A stretch of DNA of 64,000 bases from Pontibacter rufus. Its GTDB lineage: Bacteria > Bacteroidota > Bacteroidia > Cytophagales > Hymenobacteraceae. The notes beneath the pieces were generated by a model, which was not told the origin of the DNA, did no database searches, and saw only the letters and a list, made by a program, of their open reading frames with translations. The DNA lies in NCBI RefSeq assembly GCF_015694705.1, contig NZ_JADQDR010000001.1, positions 310,001 to 374,000 of the forward strand, written 5' to 3'. Shown here one piece after another: positions 4,371-41,845 of the stretch. Position numbers and translations under genes: made by a program. Each line of letters opens with the position of its first letter. Positions within the stretch are counted from its first letter, which is position 1.

Positions 4371-5648
4371 ATGAATAAGCATCATTTTAAGACAAAGGCT
4401 TTGTTAGGTGTCTGGCTACCGGTCGCGCTTTTTGCCTTAAGCCTGAGTGCCTGTAAGCAGTCACTACAGGCCAAAAGTGCCCTTGCAGAGGAGAGAAATG
4501 ATACCATTCTTCCTGAAAGCAACTCTATCGTAGCCGGTGCCGACCAGACAGCGGAGTATCTGCCTTACCTGAAAGGGAAACGCGTGGGCATGGTAGTAAA
4601 CCCGACATCCATTATCGGAAATACCCCCAGCGTAGACAGTCTGCAGGCGCTTGGCGTTAACATTGTAAAAATATTTGGTCCCGAGCATGGCTTCCGTGGC
4701 GATGCCAGCGCAGGGGTTAAAGTAGACGATAGCATAGATCCGAAAACCGGCATTAAGGTCATTTCGCTGTATGGCAAAAACAGCACTCCATCTAAAGAGA
4801 GCCTCGCCAATATTGACCTCATGATATTCGATATCCAGGACGTAGGCGCAAGGTTTTATACTTACATCGCTACCATGCACCGCGTCATGCAGGCCTGCGC
4901 CGACAATGGCAAAGAACTCCTGATCCTGGACAGGCCCAACCCGAACGGGTACCTGGTAGACGGCCCCATATTGGATATGAGCCTGAAATCGGGCATCGGC
5001 ATGCACCCCATACCCATTGCCCACGGCATGACAGTAGGGGAATTTGCCCAAATGATTAATGGCGAAGGCTGGCTTGAGAATAACCGGAAGTGCCAGATCA
5101 AAATCATAAAGGTGAAGAACTATGCGCACGACATGCCCTATACTTTGCCCGTAAGCCCATCGCCTAACCTGAATACGCAGCAGTCTGTTTTGCTATACCC
5201 ATCTCTGTGCCTGTTCGAGGGAACCGTTATCAGCCAGGGGCGGGGTACACACTTTCCGTTTACCGTATTAGGCAGCCCTGCGCTGAAAGGCAAGTATGAT
5301 TTCTCCTTCACGCCTGTCAGTATCAAAGGAATGAGCGAAACCCCGCTGTACCAGGACCAGGCCTGTTATGGCTTAGACCTGCGCAGGTATGATACCGATA
5401 AATTGCGGCAGAGCGGACAGCTGAACTTAAGCTGGCTGATGGAAATGTACCAGGCCTATCCACACAAAGAAAAGTTCTTCGACTATACGCAAAGCAAACA
5501 GATGGGCAACTTTGATAAACTGGCCGGCACCACGCAGCTCAAAGAGCAGATAATTGCCGGTGTACCGGAAGAAGAGATTCGCAGGAGCTGGGAGCCCGGC
5601 TTGAGCCAGTTTAAAGTAATGCGCGGCAAGTACCTGCTTTACCCCTGA
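4371..5648 (+). CDS. namZ: NamZ-type exo-beta-N-acetylmuramidase (DUF1343/GH171), lipoprotein
   Basis: The product has 425 residues and begins with a lipoprotein signal whose lipobox LSAC places the acylated Cys at residue 28. The DUF1343 core shows RVGMVVNPTS, FGPEHGFRG (residues 102-110, with the catalytic-region Glu), SLYG, DIQDVGARFYTY and LDRPNP, all family landmarks. NamZ removes MurNAc from the non-reducing end of peptidoglycan glycans and is characterised in Bacillus subtilis and Tannerella forsythia. The residues after Cys (KQSL) do not resemble the acidic surface-export signal of Bacteroidota, so a periplasmic location is more likely than the cell surface. It opens a forward block leading to MurQ and a MurT-like transporter, which fits a role in MurNAc release. 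Confidence 0.9.
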   Translation: MNKHHFKTKALLGVWLPVALFALSLSACKQSLQAKSALAEERNDTILPESNSIVAGADQTAEYLPYLKGKRVGMVVNPTSIIGNTPSVDSLQALGVNIVKIFGPEHGFRGDASAGVKVDDSIDPKTGIKVISLYGKNSTPSKESLANIDLMIFDIQDVGARFYTYIATMHRVMQACADNGKELLILDRPNPNGYLVDGPILDMSLKSGIGMHPIPIAHGMTVGEFAQMINGEGWLENNRKCQIKIIKVKNYAHDMPYTLPVSPSPNLNTQQSVLLYPSLCLFEGTVISQGRGTHFPFTVLGSPALKGKYDFSFTPVSIKGMSETPLYQDQACYGLDLRRYDTDKLRQSGQLNLSWLMEMYQAYPHKEKFFDYTQSKQMGNFDKLAGTTQLKEQIIAGVPEEEIRRSWEPGLSQFKVMRGKYLLYP

Positions 5649-5696
5649 TTTTTACATTCAACGCTAATATATCTTACATTCTATCAGTTAAACTTT

Positions 5697-8600
5697 ATGA
5701 AAATATTATTACGGTTTACGATGTTGGCCCTGTGCTTGATGATAGCGCAGGCCGGTTTTGCCCAGAGCAAAACAATTACCGGAACGGTAACTTCTGCCGA
5801 GGATGGCACGGCGCTGCCAGGTGTAAGCATAGTCGTGAAGGGCACCACCAATGGGGTGTCTGCAGGTGCTGATGGTACTTATGCTATTCAGGCGGCGCCG
5901 GGCGATGTGCTGGTGTTCAGCTTTATCGGAATGATGCCCCAGGAGCAGACCGTGGGTGATGCCAATACCATTGACGTGGCGCTGGCACCTGACGCCAAAG
6001 CCCTCGAAGAAGTGGTGGTGGTAGGTTACGGAACGCAGAAAAGGGCAAATCTGACCGGCGCTGTAAGTACAGTTGACACCAAAGTACTGGACTCCAGACC
6101 TATCACGGATGTGGCGCGTGGCCTGCAGGGTACCACGCCGGGCTTAACGGTAACGACCTCCAGTGGCGCCATCGGGCAAAATCCTAACATCCGCCTGAGA
6201 GGTATGACGGGCACGTTGAGAAACCCGGGCGCACAGCCGCTGATATTGGTAGATAACGTGGAGATTCCAAGCCTTCAGATGGTTAACCCCGAAGACATTG
6301 AATCTATCTCGGTGCTGAAAGATGCCGCATCTTCTTCAATTTATGGTGCCAGAGGTGCCTGGGGCGTTATCCTGATTACCACTAAAACGGGAAAGAGAAG
6401 CTCGCCTGTTAAAGTATCTTACTCAAACAACTTTTCCTGGAGCACGCCGACAACAACCCCGGAAATAGCACCGGCCGCCGAAGGAGCGGAAATGGCCTTT
6501 AAAGCTTTGCAACGGAAGAATCCAAATACCAACGTGTTTGGGGTAGTAGGTATGTACATCGACCAGACGTCTATTGATAAGATGCGTGAATGGGAAGCAC
6601 TATACGGCGGACAGGATTTGGGTAACGAGATGGTATTGGGACGTGATTTTGAGATCAGGGAAAACAAACTGTTCTTCTATCGCCCCTGGAGCCCCGGAAA
6701 AATGTATATGAGAGAATGGACGCCGCAGCAAAAACATGATGTTTCTGTATCCGGCGGCAGCGAGAAAACCAACTATTATCTTGGCCTGGGTTATCTGGGG
6801 CAGGAGGGTGTCCTGAAAGTGAATCCGGATAATTTTGACAGATACAGCCTCAACGTAGGGGTGAATACAACTGTAACGGATTGGTTTGATGTACGGGCTA
6901 AAGTGATGTATTCTAAAACGGAGTATACCCGGCCTTTCTACTTCTCCAGCGAAACCTATGATCCCTGGTATTATCTCTACAGGTGGCCTGCCGTGTATCC
7001 TTACGGTACTTATGAGGGCCACCCGTTCCGCAGTGCCATCACTGAAGTGCAGCAGGCCAAAATGAATCAGGAAGATAACGGGATGGCACGCATTAATGTG
7101 GGCGGTACCTTGCGGCCTTTTGAGGGGCTAACCATAGATGCGGATTATACTTATACCCGCAACGAAGGACATGAGCACCAGACAGGCGGCGTGTTATCAG
7201 CTTACAATTTCTGGGCTACCGGTGCCGATTTAAAGTATGAGCCGTATAGCAGCGCTTCTTACAACAGGGTTCAGTATAATTCTGAGTGGAGTAACAGAAG
7301 TGTAGGGAAAGTTTTTGCCACCTACGAGAAAGACCTGAACGACCACTCCTTTAAAGTAATTGCCGGCGGGGATGCGGAAGTGTACGACTACTGGTACCAG
7401 ATGTCTCAGAAGCGCAACCTGATGGACCCGGACAGAGGCGAAATAGACCTGGCAACCGGAGACCAGTTTGTAGACGGTGCCCGTGACAAGTGGGCTAACC
7501 TGGGTGCTTTTGCCCGTTTAAATTACTCGTACAAAGATAAGTATTTGTTGGAACTGAACGGAAGATACGACGGATCTTCCCGCCTGTCGCCCAACCAGAA
7601 ATGGGCCTTTTTCCCGTCCATGTCCGCCGGGTATGTTATCAGCGAGGAGCCTTTTATGGAGGCAACCAAACCTGTGCTGTCGTTCCTGAAGTTAAGAGGC
7701 TCCTGGGGATCTATCGGGAATCCTAACTCCCGCCTGGGTGATATCTATCGCCTGATGTCGTCCTATTCATCGGGCTGGCTGATTGGTGGCGTGAACGTGG
7801 TGACGGCTGCTACGCCGGGCGCTTTTCCGGCAGGCCTTACCTGGGAAACCATTAACACCATTGACTTCGGGCTTGATTCCAGGTTCCTGAACGATAAAGT
7901 CGGCGTAACTTTTGACTGGTATAGAAGAGCCACCAAAAACATGCACAGCGAAGGGCTTGTACTGCCTGGTACATTTGGTACAGGATTTCCTATACGCAAC
8001 AGCGGTGAGTTGCAGAACACAGGCTGGGAACTGGCAGTTGATTTCAACCACACCTTCGGCAATGGCATCAACTTTAGCGTAACCGGAACACTCACGGATT
8101 TTGAAGAAAAGATTGTGGAGTATGCTGATAACAAAGGTTTACTCGAGAACCGCCCTGGCCGGGTGATTGGCGACATCTGGGGATTTGAGACAGATCGCTT
8201 CTTTACAAATGATGATTTTGTGCAGGATGCCGATGGCAATCTGGTGCTCGACAACGGAAAGTATGTACTGAAAGATGGCATTGCGGACCAATCATACTTC
8301 GAGAGTGGCTGGTTTTTCTATGGCCCGGGTGATATCAAGTATAAAGACCTGAACGGCGACGGCAAGATCGATCGTGGCGCCCAGACTGTGGCTGATCACG
8401 GTGACATGAAGGTGATCGGCAATTCTACGCCGCACTACCAGTATGGCTTACGCATGGCCGCCGACTGGAAAGGTGTTGACCTGAGCTTTTTTGTGCAGGG
8501 CGTAGGCAAGCGCGACATGTGGGCAAACGGGCCTCTCTTTATACCTGGATACAGAGCCGGCGAAGCATGGTATGCACATCAGCTCGATTACTGGACGCCG

Positions 8601-8951
8601 GAAAACCCGAATGCCTATTATCCACGGCCAACAGATGCGGAGGGAGCAGCAACGGCTAATAATGCGAAGAACTTTCTGCCACAGACAAAATACCTGCTGA
8701 ACCTGGCATACATGCGCATGAAGAATGTGACAGTGGGCTATACACTGCCTGGCAGCATAAGCAACAAAGTGAAAATCGATAGGCTGCGCGTGTACTTCAG
8801 CGGCGAGAACCTGTTTGAGTTCGATAACCTGGATATTCCGATTGATCCTGAGGTAGATTATACCCAGGCCGGTCTGAATGATTCGAATACCTTTGGCCGG
8901 GTTTATCCTTATCGCAGAACGTTTTCCTGTGGACTGCAGGCAACTTTTTAA
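5697..8951 (+). CDS. SusC/RagA-family TonB-linked outer-membrane protein
   Basis: The product has 1084 residues. A signal peptide ends near residue 23 (GFAQ). A carboxypeptidase-regulatory-like domain follows at about residues 25-100 (GTALPGVSIVVKGT). The TonB-box/plug start is EEVVVVGYGTQKRANLTG at about 104-121, followed by a SusC-type plug (LRGMTG, IYGARGAWGVILITTK) and a long beta-barrel ending in an aromatic residue (ATF). SusC proteins form the outer-membrane importer that pairs with a SusD lid. The gene starts 48 bases after namZ and is followed after 19 bases by its susD partner. In this context the likely cargo is a peptidoglycan fragment or disaccharide, but that is inference from neighbours only. 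Confidence 0.96.
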   Translation: MKILLRFTMLALCLMIAQAGFAQSKTITGTVTSAEDGTALPGVSIVVKGTTNGVSAGADGTYAIQAAPGDVLVFSFIGMMPQEQTVGDANTIDVALAPDAKALEEVVVVGYGTQKRANLTGAVSTVDTKVLDSRPITDVARGLQGTTPGLTVTTSSGAIGQNPNIRLRGMTGTLRNPGAQPLILVDNVEIPSLQMVNPEDIESISVLKDAASSSIYGARGAWGVILITTKTGKRSSPVKVSYSNNFSWSTPTTTPEIAPAAEGAEMAFKALQRKNPNTNVFGVVGMYIDQTSIDKMREWEALYGGQDLGNEMVLGRDFEIRENKLFFYRPWSPGKMYMREWTPQQKHDVSVSGGSEKTNYYLGLGYLGQEGVLKVNPDNFDRYSLNVGVNTTVTDWFDVRAKVMYSKTEYTRPFYFSSETYDPWYYLYRWPAVYPYGTYEGHPFRSAITEVQQAKMNQEDNGMARINVGGTLRPFEGLTIDADYTYTRNEGHEHQTGGVLSAYNFWATGADLKYEPYSSASYNRVQYNSEWSNRSVGKVFATYEKDLNDHSFKVIAGGDAEVYDYWYQMSQKRNLMDPDRGEIDLATGDQFVDGARDKWANLGAFARLNYSYKDKYLLELNGRYDGSSRLSPNQKWAFFPSMSAGYVISEEPFMEATKPVLSFLKLRGSWGSIGNPNSRLGDIYRLMSSYSSGWLIGGVNVVTAATPGAFPAGLTWETINTIDFGLDSRFLNDKVGVTFDWYRRATKNMHSEGLVLPGTFGTGFPIRNSGELQNTGWELAVDFNHTFGNGINFSVTGTLTDFEEKIVEYADNKGLLENRPGRVIGDIWGFETDRFFTNDDFVQDADGNLVLDNGKYVLKDGIADQSYFESGWFFYGPGDIKYKDLNGDGKIDRGAQTVADHGDMKVIGNSTPHYQYGLRMAADWKGVDLSFFVQGVGKRDMWANGPLFIPGYRAGEAWYAHQLDYWTPENPNAYYPRPTDAEGAATANNAKNFLPQTKYLLNLAYMRMKNVTVGYTLPGSISNKVKIDRLRVYFSGENLFEFDNLDIPIDPEVDYTQAGLNDSNTFGRVYPYRRTFSCGLQATF

Positions 8952-8970
8952 TGTATAAATCAAGACAGAA

Positions 8971-10674
8971 ATGAAAACTAAAATAATTGCAATCCTTTTC
9001 TTTTCGCTTGCTTTAAGTGCTTGCGAAAAAGATTTCCTGGATACACCTCCGATAGATAAACTGACAGATGAAACCTATTGGACAAGTGAAGAGAACGTAA
9101 GAACTTTTTCATATGGCTTTTATCCGGCGTACTTTACAGGTTACGGCTCCGGCTATGCCTGGGGAAATTACTTTTCAGGCCAGGCCTTAAACGACAACTT
9201 TGCTCCTTCTAACCCGGCACAGTTTACGCAGAACGTGCCAACTTCAGGTGGCGGCTGGTCCTTTGCCTGGGTGAGAAAAGCCAATATCTTTTTAGATCGG
9301 GTGCAGGATGTGCCGATGAGCGACGAAGCCAAAGCACACTGGACCGGTATCGGCCGTTTTTTCCGTGGCATGGAGTATTCGGACCTGGTAAGCACCTTCG
9401 GAGATGTGCCCTGGTATGATACGGAACTGACCGAAGCGGATATGGAACAGCTGTACAAACCCCGCGATCCCCGCACGTTGGTGATGGACAACGTATTGGC
9501 CGATTTTAAATATGCCGCCGAAAATGTGCGGGAACAGGATGGCGCCAAAGGGCTGACGGTAAACAGAGATGTCGTACTGGCATTTATGTCGCGCGTATTT
9601 TTGTTTGAAGGTACCTGGCAGAAATACCACGAAGGTAACATGGCCAAGGCAGCCGAGTACCTCGAGGCGTCTAAGTGGGCAGCCGAACAACTGATAAGCT
9701 CGGGTAAGTATTCGTTAGGCGATTACAGAGAAGTATTTAGTTCACTTAACCTGGCCGGCAACCCCGAAGTTATACTTTACAGAGAGTATGAGCCCGGCAT
9801 ACTTACACATGCCTTAAACAGCTACAACAACAAGGAGCCGCAGTCCGGCCCGTCCAAAGATGCTATTGAGGCTTATTTGGCTTCAGATGGCCTGCCTATT
9901 GCTGTTTCTCCGCTGTACCAGGGAGATCATGGGATAGAAAATGTGATGGCCAACCGCGATCCGCGTATCACCGAAACCTTTGTGTCAGATGAATTGCGAC
10001 TGAACGGTATTGCCAGTAATTATTCCTCTTCCGGGTATGCTACGCATAAATTCCTGAACGAGGCGATTGCGAATACGCCTGAAGGAAGCTCTAACCTGAA
10101 CCCGACTGATGCGCCCGTAATCCGTTATGGCGAAGTTCTGATGAATTATGCCGAGGCTGCTGCCGAGCTGGGCACAATAGGCGGCCCGGCCTTAACCAAC
10201 GCAGATTTAGACAAATCGATTAATGTACTTCGTACCAGGCCCGGCATCAACATGCCGGCATTGCAGGTGGTTGGCGATCAGCCTGCGGTTGGTGGTGTGG
10301 TATACGATGATCCTGCACGGGATCAGGCTATCCTCCCTGTTATCTGGGAAATCCGCCGCGAACGCCGGGTAGAACTGATGATGGAAGGACTCAGGCTGGA
10401 TGATCTCAGGAGGTGGAAAGAACTGGATAATACCGATGTTGAAGAAAATCCTGATATCAACCGCGGCGCCTGGATCAAAAAAGCTGACTATCCTGGTCTT
10501 AATGCCAGTGTAGAGCTAACGGATGGAACAGAGGGGTATATCATACCGGCTACCAAAGCAGAGTCGCTGAGGCGGTTTGTAGATCCTAAAGTTTACCTGG
10601 AACCACTGCCGCTGGATCAGATTCAGCTGTACAAAGACAATGGTGCCGAGCTGGTACAGAACCCAGGTTGGTAA
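8971..10674 (+). CDS. SusD/RagB-family nutrient-binding outer-membrane lipoprotein
   Basis: The product has 567 residues. The lipobox is SLALSAC with acylated Cys at residue 18, followed by EKDF, whose acidic residues fit surface display. Typical SusD features are present: DFLDTPPIDKLTDETYWTSEENV near the N-terminus, a TPR-like helical core, and the conserved C-terminal ERRVELMMEGLRLDDLRRW segment. It binds the ligand at the cell surface and closes over the SusC barrel encoded 19 bases upstream. A strong terminator follows the stop codon at 10691-10728, so namZ-susC-susD may form one transcription unit. Confidence 0.96.
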   Translation: MKTKIIAILFFSLALSACEKDFLDTPPIDKLTDETYWTSEENVRTFSYGFYPAYFTGYGSGYAWGNYFSGQALNDNFAPSNPAQFTQNVPTSGGGWSFAWVRKANIFLDRVQDVPMSDEAKAHWTGIGRFFRGMEYSDLVSTFGDVPWYDTELTEADMEQLYKPRDPRTLVMDNVLADFKYAAENVREQDGAKGLTVNRDVVLAFMSRVFLFEGTWQKYHEGNMAKAAEYLEASKWAAEQLISSGKYSLGDYREVFSSLNLAGNPEVILYREYEPGILTHALNSYNNKEPQSGPSKDAIEAYLASDGLPIAVSPLYQGDHGIENVMANRDPRITETFVSDELRLNGIASNYSSSGYATHKFLNEAIANTPEGSSNLNPTDAPVIRYGEVLMNYAEAAAELGTIGGPALTNADLDKSINVLRTRPGINMPALQVVGDQPAVGGVVYDDPARDQAILPVIWEIRRERRVELMMEGLRLDDLRRWKELDNTDVEENPDINRGAWIKKADYPGLNASVELTDGTEGYIIPATKAESLRRFVDPKVYLEPLPLDQIQLYKDNGAELVQNPGW

Positions 10675-10690
10675 TACTTGATTTTTTAAT

Positions 10691-10728
10691 AAAAAGCCCT
10701 CCACTGGCGAAAACCTGGAGGGCTTTTT
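10691..10728. terminator. Bidirectional-type Rho-independent terminator after susD
   Basis: Arms 10691-10703 (AAAAAGCCCTCCA) and 10716-10728 are exact reverse complements around a 12-base loop. An A-run precedes and a T-run follows, the classic form on either strand. It sits 17 bases after the susD stop and would separate namZ-susCD from the following glycosidase gene. Confidence 0.88.
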
Positions 10729-10754
10729 TAATCCCGCTTACGCAGTTGCTGACG

Positions 10755-12299
10755 ATGTATAAAAGTTATACTTTCCTTATTGCCCTTCTTTTTACCACAA
10801 CCCTACTACAGGCACAACAGCAGGCACTTGCTCCGAAACGGGAGTTCAGGGGTGTCTGGGTAGCCACGGTGCAGAACATCGACTGGCCATCTAAACCGGT
10901 AGCCGGCGTCACGTCAGACCAGCAGAAGCAGGAATTGGTACAGCTGCTGGACGAACATCAGCAAACAGGTATAAACGCCATTATGCTACAAATTCGTCCC
11001 TCAGCCGATGCTTTTTATGCCAGAGGGCGGGAGGAATGGAGCATGTTCCTGACGGGCAAACAGGGCCAGGCCCCTAATCCGTTTTACGATCCGCTGGATT
11101 TTGCTATACTTGAAGCCCACAAGCGCGGTATGGAACTGCACGCCTGGTTTAACCCTTACCGTGCTACCAACGATCTGGATAATTCCCATACCAGTGCCAC
11201 CCACATCACGCGCACGCATCCCGAATGGTTTTTTACCTATGGCGGTAAAAAGTACTTTAATCCCGGCCTGCCTGAAGTAAGGCAATACATCATACAGGTA
11301 ATTATGGATGTGGTGCGTAACTATGACATCGACGGCGTGCACTTCGATGACTATTTTTATCCTTATCCTGGCAAAGAACCGCTGCCGGATTCTGCTACTT
11401 ATCAACTATACGGGCAGGAATTTGCGGATATTGACGACTGGCGCCGGAACAATGTCGATACGCTTATTCATACTTTGTCGGACAGCATACACGCTGAAAA
11501 AAGCTATGTAAAGTTTGGCATCAGCCCTTTTGGTATCTGGCGCAACAAAGCGCAGGACCCCAGGGGCTCCGAAAGCAACGGCTTGTCGGGCTACAGCGCT
11601 CTGTTTGCCGATGCCCGTAAGTGGGCGCAGCAAGGCTGGGTGGATTATGTAAATCCGCAGGTATACTTTCCGTTTTATTATCCGGCTGCGCCTTATGAAA
11701 AGCTGGTTGACTGGTGGAGTACCAACGCTTACGGGAAGCATTTATACATAGGCCAGGCCGTATACCGCGCTATGGAAGACCGCGAAGGCTGGCGCGACAA
11801 GCAGCAATTGCCTAACCAGATGCGCTACCTGCGCCACAATCCCAGTGTACAGGGCAGCGTGTTTTTCAGCTCCAAATCGCTGACCGATAACCTGGCTGGT
11901 TTCCGCGATTCGCTACAATATAATTTCTACCAATATCCGGCCCTGCCACCCGTGATGACGTGGCTGGACAGTGTGCCACCACCTGCGCCGCAGAACCTGC
12001 GCGAGAAAAAGTTTTTGTTTTTCAACTCGAATAAGAAAACCAGGCTGGAATGGGACAGCCCAAAGGAAAGTGACAGCAGCCAGGTATATGGCTATGTGAT
12101 CTATCGCTTTGCGGACAACGAACCACTTGCCCTGCACAACCCGGCCAACATCATAAAAATAAGCTTCGACCATACACTTACCTCTTTTACAGACGAGGGC
12201 ATGGCGCCTGGCCATACCTACCGCTACGTGGTAACAACCATCGACAGGCTTAAAAACGAAAGCACAACGGCAAACGCGTTAATTAAAAAAATTAAATAA
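10755..12299 (+). CDS. GHL10 glycoside hydrolase, DigH/YngK-like (DUF187)
   Basis: The ATG at 10755 is preferred over an in-frame upstream start inside the terminator; it gives 514 residues with a clean signal peptide (MYKSYTFLIALLFTTTLLQAQ). The core shows the PF02638 signature: REFRGVWVATVQNIDWPS, a GINAIMLQIRPSADAFY strand, MELHAWFNPYRA, HPEWF, GVHFDDYFYPYP and FGISPFGIWRN. A fibronectin-III-like segment follows from about residue 410. The E. coli relative DigH (YddW) is reported to cleave denuded peptidoglycan glycan strands, which suits this locus. It probably acts in the periplasm on glycan chains already stripped of peptides. No lipobox is seen. Confidence 0.85.
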   Translation: MYKSYTFLIALLFTTTLLQAQQQALAPKREFRGVWVATVQNIDWPSKPVAGVTSDQQKQELVQLLDEHQQTGINAIMLQIRPSADAFYARGREEWSMFLTGKQGQAPNPFYDPLDFAILEAHKRGMELHAWFNPYRATNDLDNSHTSATHITRTHPEWFFTYGGKKYFNPGLPEVRQYIIQVIMDVVRNYDIDGVHFDDYFYPYPGKEPLPDSATYQLYGQEFADIDDWRRNNVDTLIHTLSDSIHAEKSYVKFGISPFGIWRNKAQDPRGSESNGLSGYSALFADARKWAQQGWVDYVNPQVYFPFYYPAAPYEKLVDWWSTNAYGKHLYIGQAVYRAMEDREGWRDKQQLPNQMRYLRHNPSVQGSVFFSSKSLTDNLAGFRDSLQYNFYQYPALPPVMTWLDSVPPPAPQNLREKKFLFFNSNKKTRLEWDSPKESDSSQVYGYVIYRFADNEPLALHNPANIIKISFDHTLTSFTDEGMAPGHTYRYVVTTIDRLKNESTTANALIKKIK

Positions 12300-17395: not shown

Positions 17396-17483
17396 GCTAG
17401 AGCGAGCTTGCAGCTCGTTCTAAATTAGCTTTGAGACAAGGGTACTTAAAAATAAAAAGTACGAGCTGCAAGCTCGCACCAGC
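17396..17483. repeat. Repeat family A, copy 1: inverted pair AGCGAGCTTGCAGCTCGT
   Basis: Arms 17396-17420 and 17459-17483 are near-perfect reverse complements (22 of 25) around 38 bases. The same arms, as a perfect 27-bp pair, recur at 61323-61394. It lies in the gap between murQ and the symporter gene. The small, structured, dispersed, intergenic form is typical of REP- or MITE-like elements. Confidence 0.85.
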
Positions 17484-30572: not shown

Positions 30573-30601
30573 CTTTAAAGTATGCTTCTGATTGGCTTCA
30601 G

Positions 30602-33716: not shown

Positions 33717-33753
33717 TTTATTTGCAGGGATTTTTTGAATTCCTGCAAATAAA
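33717..33753. promoter_or_regulatory. 12-bp dyad between the divergent GH3 and amidase genes
   Basis: Arms TTTATTTGCAGG (33717-33728) and CCTGCAAATAAA (33742-33753) are exact reverse complements around 13 bases. The dyad lies 53 bases upstream of the minus-strand GH3 start and 143 bases upstream of the plus-strand amidase start. It is therefore placed for a regulator binding site or a 5'-leader hairpin of the GH3 gene. Confidence 0.45.
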
Positions 33754-33896
33754 GGCAATATTGGTAAGACGATAAGAAAGTATAGCGCTGATCCTGAAAC
33801 AACATTAGTGCCTAAGTATACATGTTGCGAGCTGCTTTTATACTTTTCAGTGTTATAACTACTGTGCGTCCGCTTATTTCTACATAGCTTAACCAT

Positions 33897-34886
33897 ATGA
33901 AACATAATTTACGCTGGATTTTATTTCTGTTGCTGGCGAGCGGTTTAATTGCCTCCTGCGCCACCAATCCTTATGCTGTGACAAACCGATCTTACAAAAA
34001 GCAGGCAAAAGCTTATGCCCGCTCTTTAAGAACTGTTCCTGAAGTAAAGCCAGGGGATGAGGCATACCAGCAAGGAGATTACTGGGTGGGTACCACCAAC
34101 TTTAGCATGCGCAAGCCAAACTATGTAGTCATCCACCATACCGCCCAGAACTCCACGGAACAAACCCTGAAGACCTTTACCACACCGGAAACGCAGGTAA
34201 GCGCACATTATGTAATCGGGCGCGACGGCAAAGTATACCACATGCTCAACGATTACCTGCGCGCCTGGCATGGCGGCGTAGGCAAATGGGGCAACAACAC
34301 GGATTTGAATTCCTCATCTATCGGCATAGAGCTCGACAACAATGGTTTTGAGCCTTTCTCTGATGCCCAGATTAACAGCCTGCTGAATGTATTAGCCATG
34401 CTGAAGAAGAAGTATAGTATACCAACCGCCAATTTTATCGGCCATTCTGATATTGCGCCAATCCGCAAAGTAGATCCCAACCCAACCTTTCCGTGGAAGA
34501 AACTGGCCGAAAACGGCTATGGCCTGTGGTACGATGAAGCCATACTTGACAGCAGCTATACACAAAGCCCAGTCCTGGTTTCGGACAGTGCGATTGCCCT
34601 GAACATTGCCCTGCTTCCTGACAGCACACTTGCACTGGGTACATTTTTAACGCCCGACAGCCTCGTTGTGTTTGGAAACGTTATCGTGGACAGCGCAAGC
34701 GTGCAGGTAAGTATCCCGGATCCCATCAACCCCGAAGATGCCCTGCGTATCATCGGCTACGATACCCGGGATTTAAGCGCTGCCATCAGGGCCTTTAAAC
34801 TGCACTTTATACAAACCGATCTCAGCGATACTTTAACCGCAAAAGATAAAAAAGTGCTGTTTAACCTGTATAAGAAGTATTTGTAA
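33897..34886 (+). CDS. N-acetylmuramoyl-L-alanine amidase, AmiD-like lipoprotein
   Basis: The product has 329 residues with a lipobox IASC (Cys21). The Amidase_2 domain spans about residues 60-215: VVIHHTAQ carries a zinc His (80/81), AHYVIGRDGKVYHML follows, GIELDNNG lies centrally, and IGHSDIAPIRKVDPNPTFPW supplies His183 and Asp193. These match the zinc ligands of E. coli AmiD. A tail of about 115 residues follows, ending in an AIRAFKLHFIQ…DKKVLFNLYKKY segment that resembles a peptidoglycan-binding_1 domain. It would release stem peptides from MurNAc, including anhydro forms. The post-Cys residues ATNP lack an export signal, so a periplasmic, inner-leaflet position is inferred. Confidence 0.93.
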   Translation: MKHNLRWILFLLLASGLIASCATNPYAVTNRSYKKQAKAYARSLRTVPEVKPGDEAYQQGDYWVGTTNFSMRKPNYVVIHHTAQNSTEQTLKTFTTPETQVSAHYVIGRDGKVYHMLNDYLRAWHGGVGKWGNNTDLNSSSIGIELDNNGFEPFSDAQINSLLNVLAMLKKKYSIPTANFIGHSDIAPIRKVDPNPTFPWKKLAENGYGLWYDEAILDSSYTQSPVLVSDSAIALNIALLPDSTLALGTFLTPDSLVVFGNVIVDSASVQVSIPDPINPEDALRIIGYDTRDLSAAIRAFKLHFIQTDLSDTLTAKDKKVLFNLYKKYL

Positions 34887-35269: not shown

Positions 35270-35292
35270 AACATAAACATACAACATCATCC

Positions 35293-36639
35293 ATGAGAAC
35301 CTTCCGGTATTTGCTACTAAGTATGAATCTGCTGTTGCTGGCGGCGTGCAGCACCACAAAGCAGGCGCCTGTCGCCAGTACACCGGCTGCCGCGCCATAC
35401 GGGCCAGCAGCTATCGAGCACGAGATTGAGGAATCAGAAAAGCGCATGCACGACTTTATTGGTTTTGCGCTCTATGATCCACAAATGAACCAGATGGTGG
35501 TGTCGCACAACGCCGATAAGTATTTTGTGCCGGCCTCTAACACCAAGCTGTTTACGTTTTATACCTGCCTCAACATGCTGGGCGATTCCATACCGGCGCT
35601 GAAGTATGCGGTGCACGGTGACTCGCTGCTGTTCTGGGGCACCGGCGACCCGATTTTTACGCACATGGACGTGAAGAACTCTGTGGTGTATGATTTCCTG
35701 AAAAGCCGGCCCGAAAAGTTATACTACTTCGATGCGCCTTTTGAAAGCACGCCTTTTGCTACCAACTGGGGCTGGGACGATTACAACTATTATTACCAGC
35801 CTGAGCGAAGTGTGTTTCCCATACATGGCAACATCGTGAAGTTTACCCGCAAAGACAGCCTGTCGGCTTATACCACCACGCCTGCGCTATTTAAAGCAAT
35901 GGTGAAAACCGATACCGGCAGTAATGCTGCGGGCGATTCGTTTGTGCGTGCCTGGCGGACGAACGAATTTACTTTTTACCCGAAATATGCCAAAGCCGCT
36001 TTTTCGGTGGAGGTGCCTTTCATCACCTCCCCTGAAATAACCGTGAAGCTGCTGGCCGATACGCTGGATCGTCCGGTAGTATGGGTAAAGCGGCCTGTTC
36101 CGGATGAAGCGCAGACGTTTTATAGTTTACCCGCCGATACGGTGTACAAACGCATGCTGCAGGTAAGCGATAATCTGCTGGCCGAGCAACTGATGGCGCT
36201 TTGTTCGGGCACTATCTCCGATACGGTTTCGGTAGCACGCGGCATCAAATATTCGCTCAATCATTACCTCTCAGATTTGCCCGATAAGCCGGTTTGGGTA
36301 GATGGATCAGGTTTGTCGAGTATGAATATGTTTACACCGCGGGATATTATTGTGCTGCTGCAAAAGCTGCTGCAGGAGCGCCCAAGAGAGCAATTATTCC
36401 CGCTGCTGGCTGCCGGCGGCCAGCCGGGTACGTTCCGCAATATTTACAAAGCGGAGGTGCCGTATGTGTTTGGCAAATCGGGAACGCTGGCGCATGTGCA
36501 CAACCAGAGCGGCTACATTATCACCAAAAGCGGCAAGCTGCTGCTCTTTAGCTTTATGAACAACAACTTTCCGGTGTCTTCTTCCGAGATCCGGAACGAA
36601 ATGGTGCGCATCATGACGGAAGTACACGAAAAATATTAG
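35293..36639 (+). CDS. D-alanyl-D-alanine carboxypeptidase/endopeptidase, PBP4-type (S13), lipoprotein
   Basis: The product has 448 residues and a lipobox LAAC (Cys19). Penicillin-binding motifs are complete: PASNTKLF (Ser82, Lys85), VSDNLLAEQ for the SxN motif and FGKSGTLAHV for KSG. The order and spacing match the S13 (DacB) family, in which an inserted domain separates the first two motifs. It removes the terminal D-Ala from pentapeptides and may cut 4-3 crosslinks in the periplasm. An unusual hairpin lies in its leader. It begins the run of genes leading to the epimerase and NlpC/P60 enzyme, though a 157-base gap follows it. Confidence 0.92.
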   Translation: MRTFRYLLLSMNLLLLAACSTTKQAPVASTPAAAPYGPAAIEHEIEESEKRMHDFIGFALYDPQMNQMVVSHNADKYFVPASNTKLFTFYTCLNMLGDSIPALKYAVHGDSLLFWGTGDPIFTHMDVKNSVVYDFLKSRPEKLYYFDAPFESTPFATNWGWDDYNYYYQPERSVFPIHGNIVKFTRKDSLSAYTTTPALFKAMVKTDTGSNAAGDSFVRAWRTNEFTFYPKYAKAAFSVEVPFITSPEITVKLLADTLDRPVVWVKRPVPDEAQTFYSLPADTVYKRMLQVSDNLLAEQLMALCSGTISDTVSVARGIKYSLNHYLSDLPDKPVWVDGSGLSSMNMFTPRDIIVLLQKLLQERPREQLFPLLAAGGQPGTFRNIYKAEVPYVFGKSGTLAHVHNQSGYIITKSGKLLLFSFMNNNFPVSSSEIRNEMVRIMTEVHEKY

Positions 36640-36682
36640 AGATTGTGCTTTTGAATTTGCTGTCGCAAGCAAGTATAGCGGA

Positions 36683-36751: not shown

Positions 36752-36796
36752 ATAAAGTTTAATCCGGGAAATCTCAACAGATAAATAATAACTATA

Positions 36797-37810
36797 ATGA
36801 AACTAATCATCCGGTCTTTTGAGCTGCCGCTGCGGCATACGTTTACCATTTCCTACGATTCGCGCGACATGCAGGAAACGTTGGTGGTGGAGTTGCAGCA
36901 GGACGGGCACAAAGGGTATGGCGAAGCGACCAGCAATCCCTATTATGGATTCACGATTGAAAACATGACGGAGGCGCTGGAAAACATCCGCAATCTGATT
37001 GAAGCAACGGACTTAACCAGCCCTGAGGAATTCTGGGCCACGATGCAGCCGCACCTGGCAGACAATCCTTTTGCACTTTGCGCCCTCGATATGGCTGCCA
37101 ACGACCTGTCCGGCAGGATAAAGGGGCAACCGCTGTACCAGTTATGGGGACTCAGCGCAGATAGAATGCCGCTTACCGACTATACCATTGGCATCGATAC
37201 GATAGACAACATGGTGAGAAAGCTGAAGGAGCGACCATGGCCGATTTACAAGATAAAGCTCGGAACACCAGAGGATGTTGCCATTGTAAAAGAACTGCGC
37301 AAGCACACGATCGCCGTCTTCCGGGTAGATGCCAACGGTGCCTGGGGTGTGGAAGAAACAATCGAGAATGCCCGGCAGCTGAAGCCTTTGGGCGTGGAGT
37401 TTATAGAGCAACCTATGCGTGCCGACGATCTGGAGGGCATGAAGGAAGTATACCAGCACTCAGTGTTGCCGCTTATAGCCGATGAAAGCTGCATTACGGA
37501 AGCCGATGTAGCCAAATGCCACGGACATTTTCACGGCGTAAATATTAAGCTGGTAAAGTGCGGCGGACTTACGTCCGCCCGCCGCATGATTGCGGAAGCC
37601 AGAAAACTGGGCATGAAAGTGATGGTTGGCTGCATGACCGAATCAAGTATAGGCATCTCGGCTATTGCGCAACTGCTGCCGCTGCTGGATTATGTAGACA
37701 TGGACGGTGCGTTGCTGCTGCGCCAGGATATTGCCAAAGGCGTTACCATCGATTATGGCAGAGTCAGCTACAGTGGTTTAAATGGAACCGGCGTTACACT
37801 GCTCGCCTGA
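36797..37810 (+). CDS. L-Ala-D/L-Glu (dipeptide) epimerase
   Basis: The product has 337 residues of the enolase superfamily, muconate-lactonising subgroup. The capping domain is followed by the barrel motifs YKIKLG (KxK base pair), FRVDANGAWG, EFIEQPM and IADESC (metal ligands), VNIKLVKCGG (second-face Lys) and YVDMDGALLL. This pattern matches the YcjG/YkfB dipeptide epimerases, which turn L-Ala-D-Glu from peptidoglycan into L-Ala-L-Glu. It has no signal peptide, so it acts in the cytoplasm. Its stop overlaps the ATG of the next gene by one base (TGATG), showing translational coupling to the PLP enzyme. Confidence 0.92.
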   Translation: MKLIIRSFELPLRHTFTISYDSRDMQETLVVELQQDGHKGYGEATSNPYYGFTIENMTEALENIRNLIEATDLTSPEEFWATMQPHLADNPFALCALDMAANDLSGRIKGQPLYQLWGLSADRMPLTDYTIGIDTIDNMVRKLKERPWPIYKIKLGTPEDVAIVKELRKHTIAVFRVDANGAWGVEETIENARQLKPLGVEFIEQPMRADDLEGMKEVYQHSVLPLIADESCITEADVAKCHGHFHGVNIKLVKCGGLTSARRMIAEARKLGMKVMVGCMTESSIGISAIAQLLPLLDYVDMDGALLLRQDIAKGVTIDYGRVSYSGLNGTGVTLLA

Positions 37811-38910
37811 TGTATGGTCCCGATCATATCACCACTGACCAACTGCCTGGCCGCACGCTAAGTATAAATGGTGCGGAATACCTGTTTTGCAGCGGCACCT
37901 CTTACCTGGGTATTTCCTGCAACGAGGCTTTCCGGCAATGCCTGCTGGATGGTATGCAGCGCTATGGTACCAATTACTCCAGTTCCCGCAATTCAAATTT
38001 ACAGTTACAGGTATTTGACGAAGTCGAGAATTACCTGGCAGCTTATACCGGGGCAGCGGCAGCGCTCACCATGTCGTCTGGTTACCTGGCGGGGCAGGTG
38101 GTGGTGCAGGCACTAAAAGATGAGGGACGGTTCCTGTATGCGCCCGGCACCCACCCGGCCATGTGGCGAAGTATGGCCGATGCGCCGGATGATGGTAGAA
38201 CGCATGTAGAATGGGTAAACCAGTTGCTGCAGGAGGCGCCGCGTTTGCCTGATGAGCACCTTATACTTGTCTGCAATTCGCTGGACCCGCTGAAAGCAGA
38301 GAAGTATACGTTCGACTGGGTGGCTGCTTTGCCGGACAATAAGCAGATTACGCTCATTGTAGATGACTCGCATGGGTTTGGCGTAACGGGTGATAATGGG
38401 GCAGGGGTTTACAGGCAACTGCGGCAGTTGCAAAGTATAAGAAAGATGAGGCTGGTGGTGATAAGCTCCTTCGGCAAAGCATTCGGCATTCCGGCAGGCC
38501 TTATACTTGCCGACAGCCCGTTTATTGAACAGCTGAAGAGCAGTCCATACTTTGGGGGCGCCTCGCCGGCGGTGCCGGCTTATCTGTACGCTTTCCTGCA
38601 CAGCAAAAGTATATTCGAGGAAGCGCGGCAGAAGCTGCTTGCCAATATCTTATACTTCCGGCAGCGGCTGGCTTGCCCGGAGCTGTTCAGCTCTTTTGAG
38701 GATTACCCGGTATTTTATACTTCCAGCGAAGCGCTTTGCCCATACCTGCTGCAGCACCGGGTCTTTATTTCCAGCTTCCGGTACCCGACACCGGCTGATG
38801 CGCCCATCACGCGCGTTATACTCAACGCGCTGCACACACCCGAAGATTTAAATCGCTTGGCAGCATTAATTAATCAGTTTAAAGAAAAGGACACAAGTAT
38901 CAAGACATAA
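37810..38910 (+). CDS. Alpha-oxoamine-synthase-like PLP enzyme (8-amino-7-oxononanoate synthase family)
   Basis: The ATG at 37810 overlaps the epimerase stop (TGATG) and gives 366 residues; an open frame extends upstream, but coupling decides this start. Fold-type I PLP features include GTSYLGIS, YGTNYSSSRNSNL, THPAMWRSM (stacking His), IVDDSHGFGVTG (Asp to the pyridine nitrogen) and SSFGKAFGIPAG with the Schiff-base Lys. AONS enzymes condense an amino acid with an acyl-CoA; biotin genes are absent here. The tight link to a dipeptide epimerase suggests it uses L-Ala or Glu released from muropeptides. The actual reaction is unknown. This gene holds eight exact AAGTATA/TATACTT heptamers, the densest run in the window. 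Confidence 0.85.
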   Translation: MYGPDHITTDQLPGRTLSINGAEYLFCSGTSYLGISCNEAFRQCLLDGMQRYGTNYSSSRNSNLQLQVFDEVENYLAAYTGAAAALTMSSGYLAGQVVVQALKDEGRFLYAPGTHPAMWRSMADAPDDGRTHVEWVNQLLQEAPRLPDEHLILVCNSLDPLKAEKYTFDWVAALPDNKQITLIVDDSHGFGVTGDNGAGVYRQLRQLQSIRKMRLVVISSFGKAFGIPAGLILADSPFIEQLKSSPYFGGASPAVPAYLYAFLHSKSIFEEARQKLLANILYFRQRLACPELFSSFEDYPVFYTSSEALCPYLLQHRVFISSFRYPTPADAPITRVILNALHTPEDLNRLAALINQFKEKDTSIKT

Positions 38911-38943
38911 GATATTAGACTCATCTACATACGAAGGTAACTA

Positions 38944-39122
38944 CCAGGTGCATTTTATGAAGCTTCACTGTTCGAGCATTGATTTGGAGGGTCCAAAGCC
39001 TTTTGTATTCCCCTCCTTTTTTCAAGGAGGGGTGCCGCAGGCGGGGTGGTTCATCTTTTTAGCGAGGGCTCCTGCCCGATCAGGAAGAAAAGTAAGGCCC
39101 AGCCGGCGAGGCGAAAAGCCAA
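38944..39122. repeat. Repeat family D, copy 2
   Basis: Starts CCAGGTGCATTTTATGAAGC, includes CACTGTTCGAGC and TTTGGAGGGTC, and ends GGAAGAAAAGTAAGGCCC then GCCGGCGAGGCGAAAAGCC. It carries an insertion with a CCCCTCCTT/AAGGAGGGG hairpin (39010-39018, 39024-39032) absent from the copy at 35012. It fills most of the 315-bp gap between the PLP enzyme and the DUF819 gene. Confidence 0.75.
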
Positions 39123-39225
39123 TAGATAGCTTCTAAATAAAGAACAAGGAATGGCAGATACTCTAAATTAATCTTTAGAATCATATTAAAAGCCTTACAA
39201 TATCAAAGCAACATAACAACAACAC

Positions 39226-40488
39226 ATGGAGCAACAAGCCGCAGCACAAGTACCATACATTACCAACGATGCCGTTGTGCTGGGCATACTGGTCATCATT
39301 TTAGCGCTCATTTTTAAGACATCGGCAAGTGAACGGCCGTTTTTCAGAAAGTTTTATGCCGTAGTGCCTTCGCTGCTGCTTTGTTACCTTATTCCCAGCC
39401 TGCTGAACTCCTTTGGCATTATCTCCGGTGAATATTCGGGGCTGTACCAGATGGCTTCGCGATATCTGTTACCTGCCAGTTTGGTGCTGTTCACCATCAG
39501 CCTTGATCTGAAAGAAATCTGGAAACTGCGCCACAAAGCCGGCCTGATGTTTATTACCGGAAGTATAGGCATTATGCTGGGCGGCCCGGTGGCGATTCTG
39601 ATCGTATCGTCTTTCGCACCCGACATAGTAGGCGGGCAGGGACCTGAGGCAGTGTGGCGGGGATTGTCTACTATTGCGGGGAGCTGGATTGGTGGCGGCG
39701 CCAACCAACTGGCCATGTACGAGGTTTTTCAGCCTGACCCTAACCTTTTTTCTGCCGTGATAGCGGTGGATGTGATTGTGGCTAACATCTGGATGGCGGT
39801 GCTGCTGTACGGCGCCGGCAAATCAGAGCGGATAGACCGGTATTTTAAAGCTGACAACACGGCGGTGAATGACCTGAAAAACAAAGTGGAAAAGTACCGC
39901 CTCAGCATCATGCGGATTCCGTCCTTAACCGATACCGTGCTGATTGTAGGCATCGGGCTGGGGGTAACGGGAGCGGCACACTTCTTCGCCGACCTGATTG
40001 CTCCCTGGATCAGTACCTACGCGCCATACCTGGAACAGTTCAGCCTGACATCCGCTTTTTTCTGGCTCGTGGTGCTGGCGACTGCTTTTGGCATTCTGCT
40101 GTCCTTTACCCAGGCGCGTCAGTTGGAAGGGGCGGGGGCTTCGCGCATTGGCAGCCTGTTTCTATATATCATGGTCGCCACCATTGGGATGCAGATGGAT
40201 GTAACAGCTGTTTTCAGCAATCCGGGCCTGTTTCTGGTAGGCTTTATCTGGATATGTGTGCATATGCTGCTGCTGATCATCGTTGGCAGGCTCATCAAGG
40301 CGCCCTTTTTCTTTCTGGCGGTGGGCAGCCAGGCCAATGTGGGAGGGGCAGCATCTGCCCCCATTGTGGCAGCGGCGTTTCATCCGGCGCTGGCCCCGGT
40401 TGGCGTGCTGCTGGCCATCTTCGGGTATGCCATCGGCACATATGCTGCTTACATCAGTGCCCTTATGATGCAGGCGGTGGCGCCATAA
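39226..40488 (+). CDS. DUF819 (YjcL-like) membrane protein, putative transporter
   Basis: The product has 420 residues and about eleven to twelve hydrophobic segments. DUF819 hallmarks are visible: an early TNDAVVLGILVIILAL helix, YLLPASLVLFTISLDLKEI, GSIGIMLGGPVAI, IAGSWIGGGANQLAM and GSQANVGGAASAPIVAAAF. The family resembles sodium-coupled anion and organic-acid transporters in topology, but no substrate is established to my knowledge. Its position between a muropeptide epimerase pair and an NlpC/P60 peptidase makes it a candidate importer of L-Ala-D-Glu or related short peptides. A family D repeat separates it from the upstream genes. Confidence 0.85.
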   Translation: MEQQAAAQVPYITNDAVVLGILVIILALIFKTSASERPFFRKFYAVVPSLLLCYLIPSLLNSFGIISGEYSGLYQMASRYLLPASLVLFTISLDLKEIWKLRHKAGLMFITGSIGIMLGGPVAILIVSSFAPDIVGGQGPEAVWRGLSTIAGSWIGGGANQLAMYEVFQPDPNLFSAVIAVDVIVANIWMAVLLYGAGKSERIDRYFKADNTAVNDLKNKVEKYRLSIMRIPSLTDTVLIVGIGLGVTGAAHFFADLIAPWISTYAPYLEQFSLTSAFFWLVVLATAFGILLSFTQARQLEGAGASRIGSLFLYIMVATIGMQMDVTAVFSNPGLFLVGFIWICVHMLLLIIVGRLIKAPFFFLAVGSQANVGGAASAPIVAAAFHPALAPVGVLLAIFGYAIGTYAAYISALMMQAVAP

Positions 40489-40663
40489 AGAAGTATAATT
40501 TATGAAACGGACGCTGCGGAACCACAGGGAATCAACTAAAATCATCTGAATTGAACAATAAGCAGCTGTACAGCATTAATGAAGTATACATCGGGATTAG
40601 GGATTTGGCTGCTTACTTAGTCCCTTAGAACATAAACAAATGAGCACATTGACTTAGTACCTT

Positions 40664-41845
40664 ATGCGACAAAACTTTTATATACTTCTGCTGGGTTTAC
40701 TGATGGCTTGCACCAGCGGCAAACCTGTAACAGAATCATCCTCTGCGGGCACTACGCTGTCTTCTTATATTGAGGGCATCCGCAAGCAATTTGCACCTGA
40801 TAAGCGTACGGCTTTGTTTCAGGTTGAGTCGCAAGGAAATGTGCTCTCCGGCGAAACAAATATGCCGGCAGCAAAGGCTGCTTTGCTCAATCAATTGCAG
40901 GCAGCGCATGTTGCTTATGTAGACAGCATCGGGGTGTTGCCGGCGCCTGACCTGCAAGGAAAACACCAGGCGATCATCACGATTTCGGTGGCTAACTTAC
41001 GTACAAAGCCGGAACATTCGGCAGAACTGGCCTCGCAGGCTACGCTGGGCACGCCCGTGCAGGTGTGGAAGGAAAATGACGGCTGGTACCTGGTGCAGAC
41101 CCCGGATAAATACCTGGCCTGGGTAGATGCCGGCGGTATTGCCCTGATGGATGATAACAACTTTTCGGGCTGGCAGAACAGCGAGAAAGTAATCTATACC
41201 CATCCGTATGGCTTTGCGTATGCGGGGCCTGATGCAGCAGGTACAACAGTTTCTGATTTGGTGTATGGCGATGTGCTGGCGCTGAAGAATCAGGCGGGTA
41301 GATTTTATGAAGTAGCGTTTCCGGACGGACGCACCGCGTATGTACCTGCCAGCGAAGCTACAACTTATAAAGTATGGACCGCCAGCCGCCAGCCGACCGA
41401 GAACAACCTGGTGCAGACAAGCAAACGCCTGATGGGCGTACCATACCTGTGGGGCGGCACCTCCTTTAAAGGCGTGGACTGCAGCGGCTTTACCAAAACA
41501 GTTTATTTTATGAACGGGCTGGTGCTGCCGCGCGACGCATCGCAGCAGGTACACGCCGGCGAACTGGTGGATACTTCCAACGGTTGGGAAAACATGCGCC
41601 CGGGTGATTTGCTTTTCTTTGGGGTGCCGGCAAAAGACGGTAAGCCCGAACGCGTAGTGCATGTAGGTATGTGGATTGGCGAAAACCAGGAGTTTATACA
41701 TTCTTCCGGCCGTGTGCGCGTCAGCAGCATGAACCCCGATGCATCCAACTATGATGCGTATAATCGTAACCGTTTCCTGCGGGCTAAGCGCATTTCGCCG
41801 CAAGCTGCCCTGCTCGATTTACGTACCGCCGCTCTTTATCAGTAG
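40664..41845 (+). CDS. NlpC/P60 gamma-D-Glu-diamino-acid endopeptidase, YkfC-like lipoprotein
   Basis: The product has 393 residues and a lipobox LMAC (Cys16). Two SH3b-like domains (about 105-165 and 175-240) precede the NlpC/P60 domain. The domain shows GVPYLWGGTSFKGVDCSGF with the catalytic Cys273, RDASQQ, MRPGDLLFFG, VVHVGMWIG with His333, and a further polar His346 in EFIHSSG. This architecture matches YkfC-type enzymes that cut gamma-D-Glu-mDAP in free stem peptides with an exposed N-terminal L-Ala. It would supply L-Ala-D-Glu to the epimerase encoded upstream. Predicted periplasmic, lipid-anchored. Confidence 0.93.
   Translation: MRQNFYILLLGLLMACTSGKPVTESSSAGTTLSSYIEGIRKQFAPDKRTALFQVESQGNVLSGETNMPAAKAALLNQLQAAHVAYVDSIGVLPAPDLQGKHQAIITISVANLRTKPEHSAELASQATLGTPVQVWKENDGWYLVQTPDKYLAWVDAGGIALMDDNNFSGWQNSEKVIYTHPYGFAYAGPDAAGTTVSDLVYGDVLALKNQAGRFYEVAFPDGRTAYVPASEATTYKVWTASRQPTENNLVQTSKRLMGVPYLWGGTSFKGVDCSGFTKTVYFMNGLVLPRDASQQVHAGELVDTSNGWENMRPGDLLFFGVPAKDGKPERVVHVGMWIGENQEFIHSSGRVRVSSMNPDASNYDAYNRNRFLRAKRISPQAALLDLRTAALYQ

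Follow-up and report, generated by a model that had tools for sequence, protein, structure and literature searches.

A candidate murein utilization locus with its own SusCD pair in Pontibacter rufus

The window analyzed here is a stretch of 64,000 nucleotides (nt) from Pontibacter rufus, i.e., positions 310001-374000 of contig C11 in a genome of 5.03 Mb and 21 contigs. Positions 4371-41845 of the window contain predicted genes for the degradation of cell walls, for the use of N-acetylmuramic acid (MurNAc), and for two SusCD pairs, and an initial annotation had proposed a polysaccharide utilization locus (PUL) dedicated to murein. Gene families were assigned by Pfam and NCBIfam scans of the open reading frames (ORFs) of the locus, and every family named in that annotation was indeed found at its place (Table 1). 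The starts were corrected for the phosphoesterase (about 14600), the GHL10 protein (about 10755), and the pyridoxal phosphate (PLP) enzyme (about 37810). The genes for SusC1 and SusD1 are adjacent, with a gap of 19 nt, which is the pairing by which PULs are recognized. Both domains of NamZ scored above the Pfam cut-off, and MurQ reached 326 bits, compared to a TIGR00274 cut-off of 302 bits. The SSF symporter is putatively MurT-like, based on its family and on its neighbor MurQ.

Table 1. Features of the locus and its candidate operators (window coordinates).
Feature	Position	Strand	Basis
Candidate operator TGC-N7-TGC-N19-GCA, upstream of NamZ	4048..4082	+	pattern search
NamZ (exo-beta-N-acetylmuramidase family), lipoprotein-like, accessory clade	4371..5648	+	NamZ_N/C Pfam
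SusC1, TonB-dependent transporter	5697..8951	+	family scan
SusD1, surface glycan-binding lipoprotein family	8971..10674	+	family scan
Hairpin and T-run after SusD1, possible partial transcription stop	10691..10731	+	read from sequence; absent from hairpin scan listing
GHL10/DigH-type protein	10755..12299	+	family scan; closest solved relative Cwp19
GH9 with CelD_N, proposed exo-(N-acetyl)glucosaminidase	12352..14193	+	family scan, invariant GGWHDA.D and NEPT
Secreted calcineurin-like phosphoesterase with PQQ-type beta-propeller	14600..16465	+	family scan, metal motifs
MurQ, MurNAc-6-phosphate etherase	16507..17352	+	TIGR00274
SSF-family symporter, MurT-like by family and position	17633..19147	+	family scan
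DeoR/GlpR-type regulator, may recognize the TGC element	19402..20145	-	family scan
M19 dipeptidase, apparent local addition	20339..21526	-	family scan, genus synteny
Class-A serine hydrolase (beta-lactamase fold; STVK, SDN), apparent local addition	21805..23061	+	family scan, motifs, genus synteny
SusD2 (SusD-like_2), apparent local addition	23320..24747	-	family scan, genus synteny
SusC2, apparent local addition	24760..27879	-	family scan, genus synteny
S9 prolyl oligopeptidase	28161..30293	+	family scan; in no orthologous same-genus locus read
GH3 (NagZ-type signature) fused to beta-lactamase/PBP4B-like domain	30602..33664	-	family scan, motif
Candidate operator TGC-N7-TGC-N19-GCA upstream of GH3, in region common to divergent Amidase_2 gene	33723..33757	-	pattern search
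Amidase_2, AmpD/AmiD-like lipoprotein	33897..34886	+	family scan
S13 (PBP4-type) DD-carboxypeptidase/endopeptidase	35293..36639	+	family scan, motifs
L-Ala-D/L-Glu epimerase family (MR_MLE dipeptide-epimerase relative)	36797..37810	+	family scan
BioF/KBL-like PLP enzyme, overlaps epimerase stop	37810..38910	+	family scan
DUF819 membrane protein, candidate dipeptide permease	39226..40488	+	family scan
NlpC/P60 endopeptidase	40664..41845	+	family scan; closest solved relative 3npf

The closest solved relative of the GHL10 protein was Cwp19 (5oq2, E 2.7e-101), which was the sole match in the structure-sequence comparison; the title of PMC6016235 calls it a lytic transglycosylase. The closest solved relatives of the NlpC/P60 protein, the epimerase and NamZ were 3npf, 3iji and 4jja, respectively. 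The motifs D-x-H, G-D, G-N-H, H and G-H-G-H of the phosphoesterase were invariant in 16 of 16 sequences; its model had a pLDDT of 88, and all structure matches among the best 50 listed concerned the propeller half. In GH9, the motifs GGWHDA.D and YS.NEPT were kept in 14 of 14 sequences, and the predicted structure had a mean pLDDT of 67. The GH3 protein carries KHFPGHG....DSH, presumably the NagZ signature, and its second domain has S-x-x-K. Excerpts of PMC6987092 treat RmNag3, in which a GH3 is likewise joined to a beta-lactamase domain, as a beta-N-acetylglucosaminidase that takes part in the turnover of peptidoglycan. S-x-x-K and S-x-N-type motifs were present in S13 and in the class-A hydrolase, and a simple pattern search found KTG or KSG in neither of them. 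The NlpC/P60 protein has DCSG plus a later His. Judged by these motifs, the catalytic parts of the locus enzymes look intact.

Synteny was analyzed in a family sample of 200 genomes, 50 of which belong to the same genus. A NamZ with at least 69% identity was present in 17 other same-genus sample genomes, and 14 of these loci were fetched. In all 14 loci, NamZ was followed by SusCD, GHL10, phosphoesterase, MurQ and SSF, and GH9 was present in 11. DeoR and a close GH3 (at least 76% identity) follow in 13 loci; in the remaining one (G109) the contig ends earlier. Nine loci had the complete set of 11 genes selected along the stretch between NamZ and NlpC, both included, and of the other five, two (G101, G085) were read in part and three (G103, G109, G113) have the epimerase on a separate contig. 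In one locus (L044 of G101) the NamZ-SusCD unit was doubled in tandem. The interval between DeoR and GH3 contained M19 and the class-A hydrolase in one of the 13 loci (G085), which also holds a SusD-like_2-type pair there, and S9 in none of the 13. Judged by this comparison, S9, M19, the class-A serine hydrolase, and the SusC2/SusD2 pair were apparently added locally. In 16 of 23 genomes, no more than 26 kb separated the epimerase from the locus-type MurQ. With at least 77% identity, the epimerase also occurred in 13 same-genus genomes without a locus-type MurQ; therefore, the peptide part is separable from the glycan part.

Conservation also extended well beyond the family. SusD1 is 77% identical to the copy of Pontibacter chinhatensis and 79% to that of P. 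ummariensis. A DNA scan with SusD1 yielded 41 loci, 35 with at least 50% identity (two of them from Pontibacter) and six more distant ones, and NamZ, MurQ, GHL10, Amidase_2, NlpC, the epimerase, a close GH3, and a MurK-like kinase were sought as markers in a flank of up to 10 kb. A murein-related marker or the kinase was near SusD1 in 29 of the 35 loci, and in 26 when the kinase was not counted. The six loci without a marker were five of Chitinophaga, which have GH9, and one of Flavihumibacter with DeoR and a phosphoesterase; none of the six more distant loci (below 50%) had markers in the flank read. The genera include Olivibacter, Mucilaginibacter, Sphingobacterium, Echinicola, Algoriphagus, Sinomicrobium, Galbibacter, and Fodinibius, and the SusD1 relatives in other families and orders stand in reshuffled versions of the locus. 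In an even phylum sample, 16 further genomes had SusD1; NamZ was located within 10 kb in 11 of them and MurQ within 15 kb in seven, at a chance expectation of about 1% each, estimated arithmetically for one to three NamZ per genome. A single genus accounts for five of the eleven, and the 16 include at least three genomes (G540, G553, G626) that coincide with loci of the DNA scan, so that the two counts overlap. The cleanest, compact version was found in five genomes of one genus (L161, L162, L165, L170, L172), with DeoR divergent from SusC-SusD-NamZ-MurQ-SSF-GH3-NagX and a weak D-lactate-dehydrogenase-like match (25-26%) within a few kb.

These distributions bear on two other explanations. First, the 37 kb could be a chance pile-up of separate units, as the local S9, M19, class-A hydrolase and SusC2/SusD2 genes and the independent occurrence of the epimerase would suggest. 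This holds for the insertions and is unlikely for the core, because the linkage recurs across families and orders and an upstream element is shared (see below); as an account of the whole locus it is highly improbable. The proposed murein PUL, equipped with a SusCD of its own, is largely supported as regards the core, its linkage beyond the family, the shared element and the DeoR gene within the locus; a single 37-kb unit with two SusCD pairs is not supported. Second, the true target of the import pair could be another glycan, e.g., a cellulose- or chitin-like one or a secondary polymer of the wall, with only by-products left to the MurNAc genes. The GH9 family is known above all for its cellulases, the nearest solved relatives of the locus protein are endoglucanases (3x17; by profile, it also matches 5dgq, an exo-beta-glucosaminidase), and the flanks read in Chitinophaga contain GH9 but neither NamZ nor MurQ. 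However, many SusD1 loci with NamZ, MurQ or GHL10 are devoid of GH9, and the only glycosidase families among the scanned locus ORFs are NamZ, GHL10, GH9, and GH3. We regard this explanation as very unlikely.

Alignment of the GH3 upstream regions revealed a block that is conserved in 18 of 19 same-genus loci, and the NamZ upstream regions share its spacing. The exact core TGC-N7-TGC-N19-GCA was sought up to 450 nt upstream on the gene strand. It was present upstream of NamZ in 11 of 15 same-genus loci (window included), and 18 of 19 loci had it upstream of GH3; the sole miss (G095) was also a locus in which DeoR was not seen in the 20 kb read. Upstream of 14 other genes it was absent (0 of 170 gene starts; SusC, SusD and the PLP enzyme were outside this test), and Amidase_2, which shares the GH3 site in reverse orientation, was not counted. 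The core occurred ten times in control DNA that totaled 396 kb, i.e., 0.006 per 450 nt and strand, and among 55 spacings tried in the NamZ upstream regions this one stood out (11 versus a mean of 0.13). A 17-base version had one further place within two mismatches in the whole genome and none when it was reversed; this pattern was written from both window sites, and thus their exact match is by construction. An element upstream of the phosphoesterase in the genus, at which the first scan had hinted, was rejected (0 of 17).

A stricter form, which was fixed only after the loose matches had been seen, occurred five times in 39 loci of other genera, whereas 30 simulated sets had 0.13 occurrences on average and never more than one. 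Four of the five matches were directly upstream of a cluster gene and on its strand, i.e., the PF09992 gene preceding NamZ (two Mucilaginibacter), NagX (Olivibacter), and MurQ (Sphingobacterium allocomposti). The fifth (L092, also L173, same genome) was inside the region encoding the GH9 signal peptide and was dropped. The corrected count for the loose core in these loci was five intergenic and six coding matches. Among 17 phylum-sample loci, the strict form was found in two, L173 (the GH9 coding case) and L174. Because so few loci contain it, most relatives are devoid of the element. In the window, the DeoR gene is located between the NamZ and GH3 elements, and proteins of the DeoR family have a habit of binding repeats with a spacing of 10 bp. 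Based on this position and habit, DeoR may be the reader of the element, and the NamZ and GH3 units form a candidate regulon. The postulated co-regulation thereby received a hint at the sequence level, from the shared element and the locus DeoR.

The copies of NamZ and MurQ elsewhere were used as a further comparison. NamZ was present in 199 of the 200 family genomes, mostly as a member of another, universal clade; a copy at least 60% identical to that of the window was found in 48, and the other copies had about 50-59% identity among the matches listed. MurQ was present in all 200 genomes, but the locus type (at least 78% identity) was found in 23 only, all of the same genus and mostly alongside a second MurQ. 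In all of these 23 except G033, G075, G077, G091, and G095, i.e., in 18, the accessory NamZ shared a contig with the locus-type MurQ, at a distance of no more than about 23 kb. None of the core was present at seven loci of universal NamZ copies. The genome of P. rufus has 32 SusD-like_3 places, 31 of them above the cut-off. A comparison with 20 further SusD regions of P. rufus (16-20 kb each) did not reveal a single case of NamZ, MurQ, GHL10, Amidase_2, NlpC, the epimerase, GH9, or the phosphoesterase; these regions contained SusC/SusD plus single weak matches to GH3 (24%), DeoR (26%), S9 (28%), and GH95 (42%).

A third explanation is self-recycling, i.e., the locus would recover wall fragments shed by the cell itself, with SusCD as a recapture port. 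The P. rufus genome has no MurQ match apart from that of the locus, and own recycling via MurQ would thus use the locus too; in addition, the mur operon of Tannerella forsythia is discussed as serving recycling and salvage in the excerpts of the papers cited below. Set against this is the difference between the near-universal NamZ and MurQ families and the 23 genomes with the locus type. The accessory, patchy distribution, together with a D-lactate-dehydrogenase-like gene in relatives, argues for catabolism rather than for self-recycling, which we regard as improbable.

The relatives appear to supply steps that are missing in the window. Family scans did not reveal a MurK kinase among the window's locus ORFs, and a complete murTKQ-type set was not found there. 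A BadF-type kinase on contig C3 matches the solved MurK 8ow9 (E 6.5e-66), and several relatives have a MurK-like kinase beside MurQ or near SusC1. The Echinicola kinase that adjoins MurQ has Gly in the T94 column, as seen in alignments to related kinases. AnmK is present in the P. rufus genome; should GHL10 act as a transglycosylase, AnmK could supply MurQ with substrate derived from anhydro-MurNAc. A D-lactate dehydrogenase/GlcD-type FAD/Fe-S protein was found in 14 of 14 same-genus loci and in four of five further loci, and the P. rufus genome has a match of 29% elsewhere only. Examples of such proteins are at L115:17403-19934 and, as a weak match, near the L165 locus (1574-4489). An HGSNAT_cat protein, which we take to be NagX-like, was present in 12 of the 14 same-genus loci.

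Taken together, it is likely that the locus is an accessory utilization locus for murein, i.e., the glycan of peptidoglycan, that is built like a PUL. Gene content, conserved linkage, the shared upstream element, and the motif residues carry this interpretation, and from them we infer the substrate, the specificities of the enzymes, the role of DeoR as reader, and induction. SusC1/SusD1 would capture and import fragments of the wall glycan, and GHL10, Amidase_2, S13 and NlpC/P60 would cut the strands and strip or open the stem peptides. NamZ would free MurNAc from non-reducing ends, the NagZ-type GH3 and probably GH9 would free N-acetylglucosamine (GlcNAc) or glucosamine, and the phosphoesterase would remove phosphate-linked substituents. 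The SSF symporter would bring MurNAc into the cytoplasm, where MurNAc-6-phosphate would be made by a kinase encoded outside the locus (BadF-type, or AnmK in the case of anhydro-MurNAc), and the locus MurQ would convert it to GlcNAc-6-phosphate and D-lactate. NlpC/P60, DUF819 and the epimerase may form a route for L-Ala-D-Glu. DeoR would repress the NamZ and GH3 units via TGC-N7-TGC-N19-GCA until a phosphorylated amino sugar appears.

Several points weigh against this interpretation. The core of the element was defined post hoc, with the upstream regions of NamZ and GH3 both in view, and the genomes are related; the exact core is lacking at four NamZ loci (G038, G069, G103, G109), and it was absent upstream of the DeoR gene itself (0 of 18). 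The slot next to NamZ contains a SusCD of type 1 in only two of the 14 same-genus loci (G109 and G113), and it is filled with a pair resembling SusD2/SusC2 (about 30% identity) in the other 12, so that SusD1 is not the sole solution. In the even phylum sample, SusD1 was found at E 1e-80 in only 17 of 395 genomes, the own genome included. At 19 further loci with accessory NamZ (20 kb each; 18 of other genera and the same-genus G052), no cluster was found except for a weak SusC match in two, and high NamZ identity alone was rejected as a marker of the locus. The D-lactate-dehydrogenase-like gene and NagX were not found in the window. The C3 kinase keeps Asp95 and Pro-Ser-Leu at 133-135, but it has His at the T94 position, which excerpts of PMC10465942 tie to the fit of MurNAc, with a clash with the lactyl group expected. 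Lastly, gaps of 406 nt after GH9 and 280 nt after MurQ and the strong terminator-like hairpin 3' of SusD1 show that the genes do not form a single tight operon; the enzymes downstream of SusD1 may have a lower expression via read-through past this predicted hairpin.

The surroundings add some further features. The gap between MurQ and the symporter contains two similar GCGAGCTTGCAGCTCG hairpins (17398-17480), possibly a repeat element. Directly before the locus, GH32 (truncated by the window start) and GH95 are located at 38-3754; they were rejected as members because they are outside the conserved set and more than 600 nt separate GH95 from NamZ. A 20-pair hairpin in this gap (3840-3887) is terminator-like on the minus strand only and thus no proof of a locus boundary. 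A scan for sigma-70-type promoters yielded 31 sites, compared to 20.0 expected, which is an uninformative difference.

Additional neighbors were observed in relatives. In Mucilaginibacter, a PF09992 phosphodiester glycosidase is beside NamZ, and in G077 PF09992 and another phosphoesterase domain are in one protein that adjoins a NamZ of 36% identity. The PF09992 neighbors of NamZ at L087:4565-5416 and L132:14310-18155 could possibly strip wall teichoic acid. In S. allocomposti, GH9 is fused to a NodB-type polysaccharide deacetylase, and in two other cases the two are side by side (L097:7394-9868, L173:928-1569, L075:11731-12618). It is speculation that these neighbors handle phosphate-linked wall polymers and deacetylated glucosamine. 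The Chitinophaga locus L093 contains an L,D-transpeptidase (YkuD_2; 1818-2561), GH9 and a NagA-like amidohydrolase, and NamZ and MurQ were not in the flank read.

A wider proposal would be a DeoR-controlled murein PUL across several Bacteroidota families and orders by which Gram-negative bacteria would consume the walls of other bacteria, including Gram-positive ones. Wall polymers are linked as GlcNAc-1-P-6-MurNAc, and the phosphoesterase, plus PF09992 in some species, would strip such phosphate-linked polymers from C6 of MurNAc, while GH9 and NodB would form a second, deacetylation-dependent route for GlcNAc. This proposal is tentative, and we consider it rather doubtful in its full extent.

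If the locus is used for murein, import machinery that relatives normally use for plant or algal sugars would apparently serve to feed on the walls of other bacteria. One locus would unite MurNAc release with the etherase and, among relatives, with the use of D-lactate, SusD1 would be a candidate murein binder, and the conserved SusCD-linked set with its predicted operator could be a means to recognize murein eaters in genomes. Peptidoglycan is a very abundant bacterial polymer, and the occurrence of its enzymes in PULs was the subject of a survey that we take to be that of Lapebie et al. GH23, GH24, GH25, and GH73 were under-represented in PULs, though present in several predicted ones, according to the excerpts of the survey (PMC6499787).

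With Sus-type PULs of the Bacteroidota the locus shares the tandem SusC-SusD, glycosidases, an inner-membrane transporter, and a local regulator; it differs in its predicted substrate, murein. The dipeptide epimerase and NlpC/P60 resemble the known Bacteroidota pair, and here they occur with the PLP enzyme and DUF819 and are joined to a glycan locus. The GH3 with its beta-lactamase domain resembles RmNag3 of Rhodothermus, which is not placed beside SusCD, NamZ or MurQ in the excerpts of PMC6987092. The operon Tanf_08345-08385 of T. forsythia comprises gtf, lytB, ampG, ybbC, murT, murK, and murQ on one transcript, according to excerpts of PMC5388701, PMC5790795, and PMC7670621. Common to both are YbbC and MurQ and, putatively, a sodium-symporter-type MurNAc transporter and the salvage of MurNAc and muropeptides from outside. 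In contrast, the excerpts describe AmpG and MurK inside the T. forsythia operon, list no SusC/SusD (PMC5388701), and report GppX rather than DeoR regulation in a MurNAc auxotroph. For this comparison, YbbC is presumed to belong to the NamZ family. Among the matches listed in the literature search, which mostly did not extend to subscription journals, no title or abstract described a murein PUL, and NamZ was in no title or abstract searched. PULs and MurNAc operons are already known, and the new element would be a PUL with murein as its predicted substrate.

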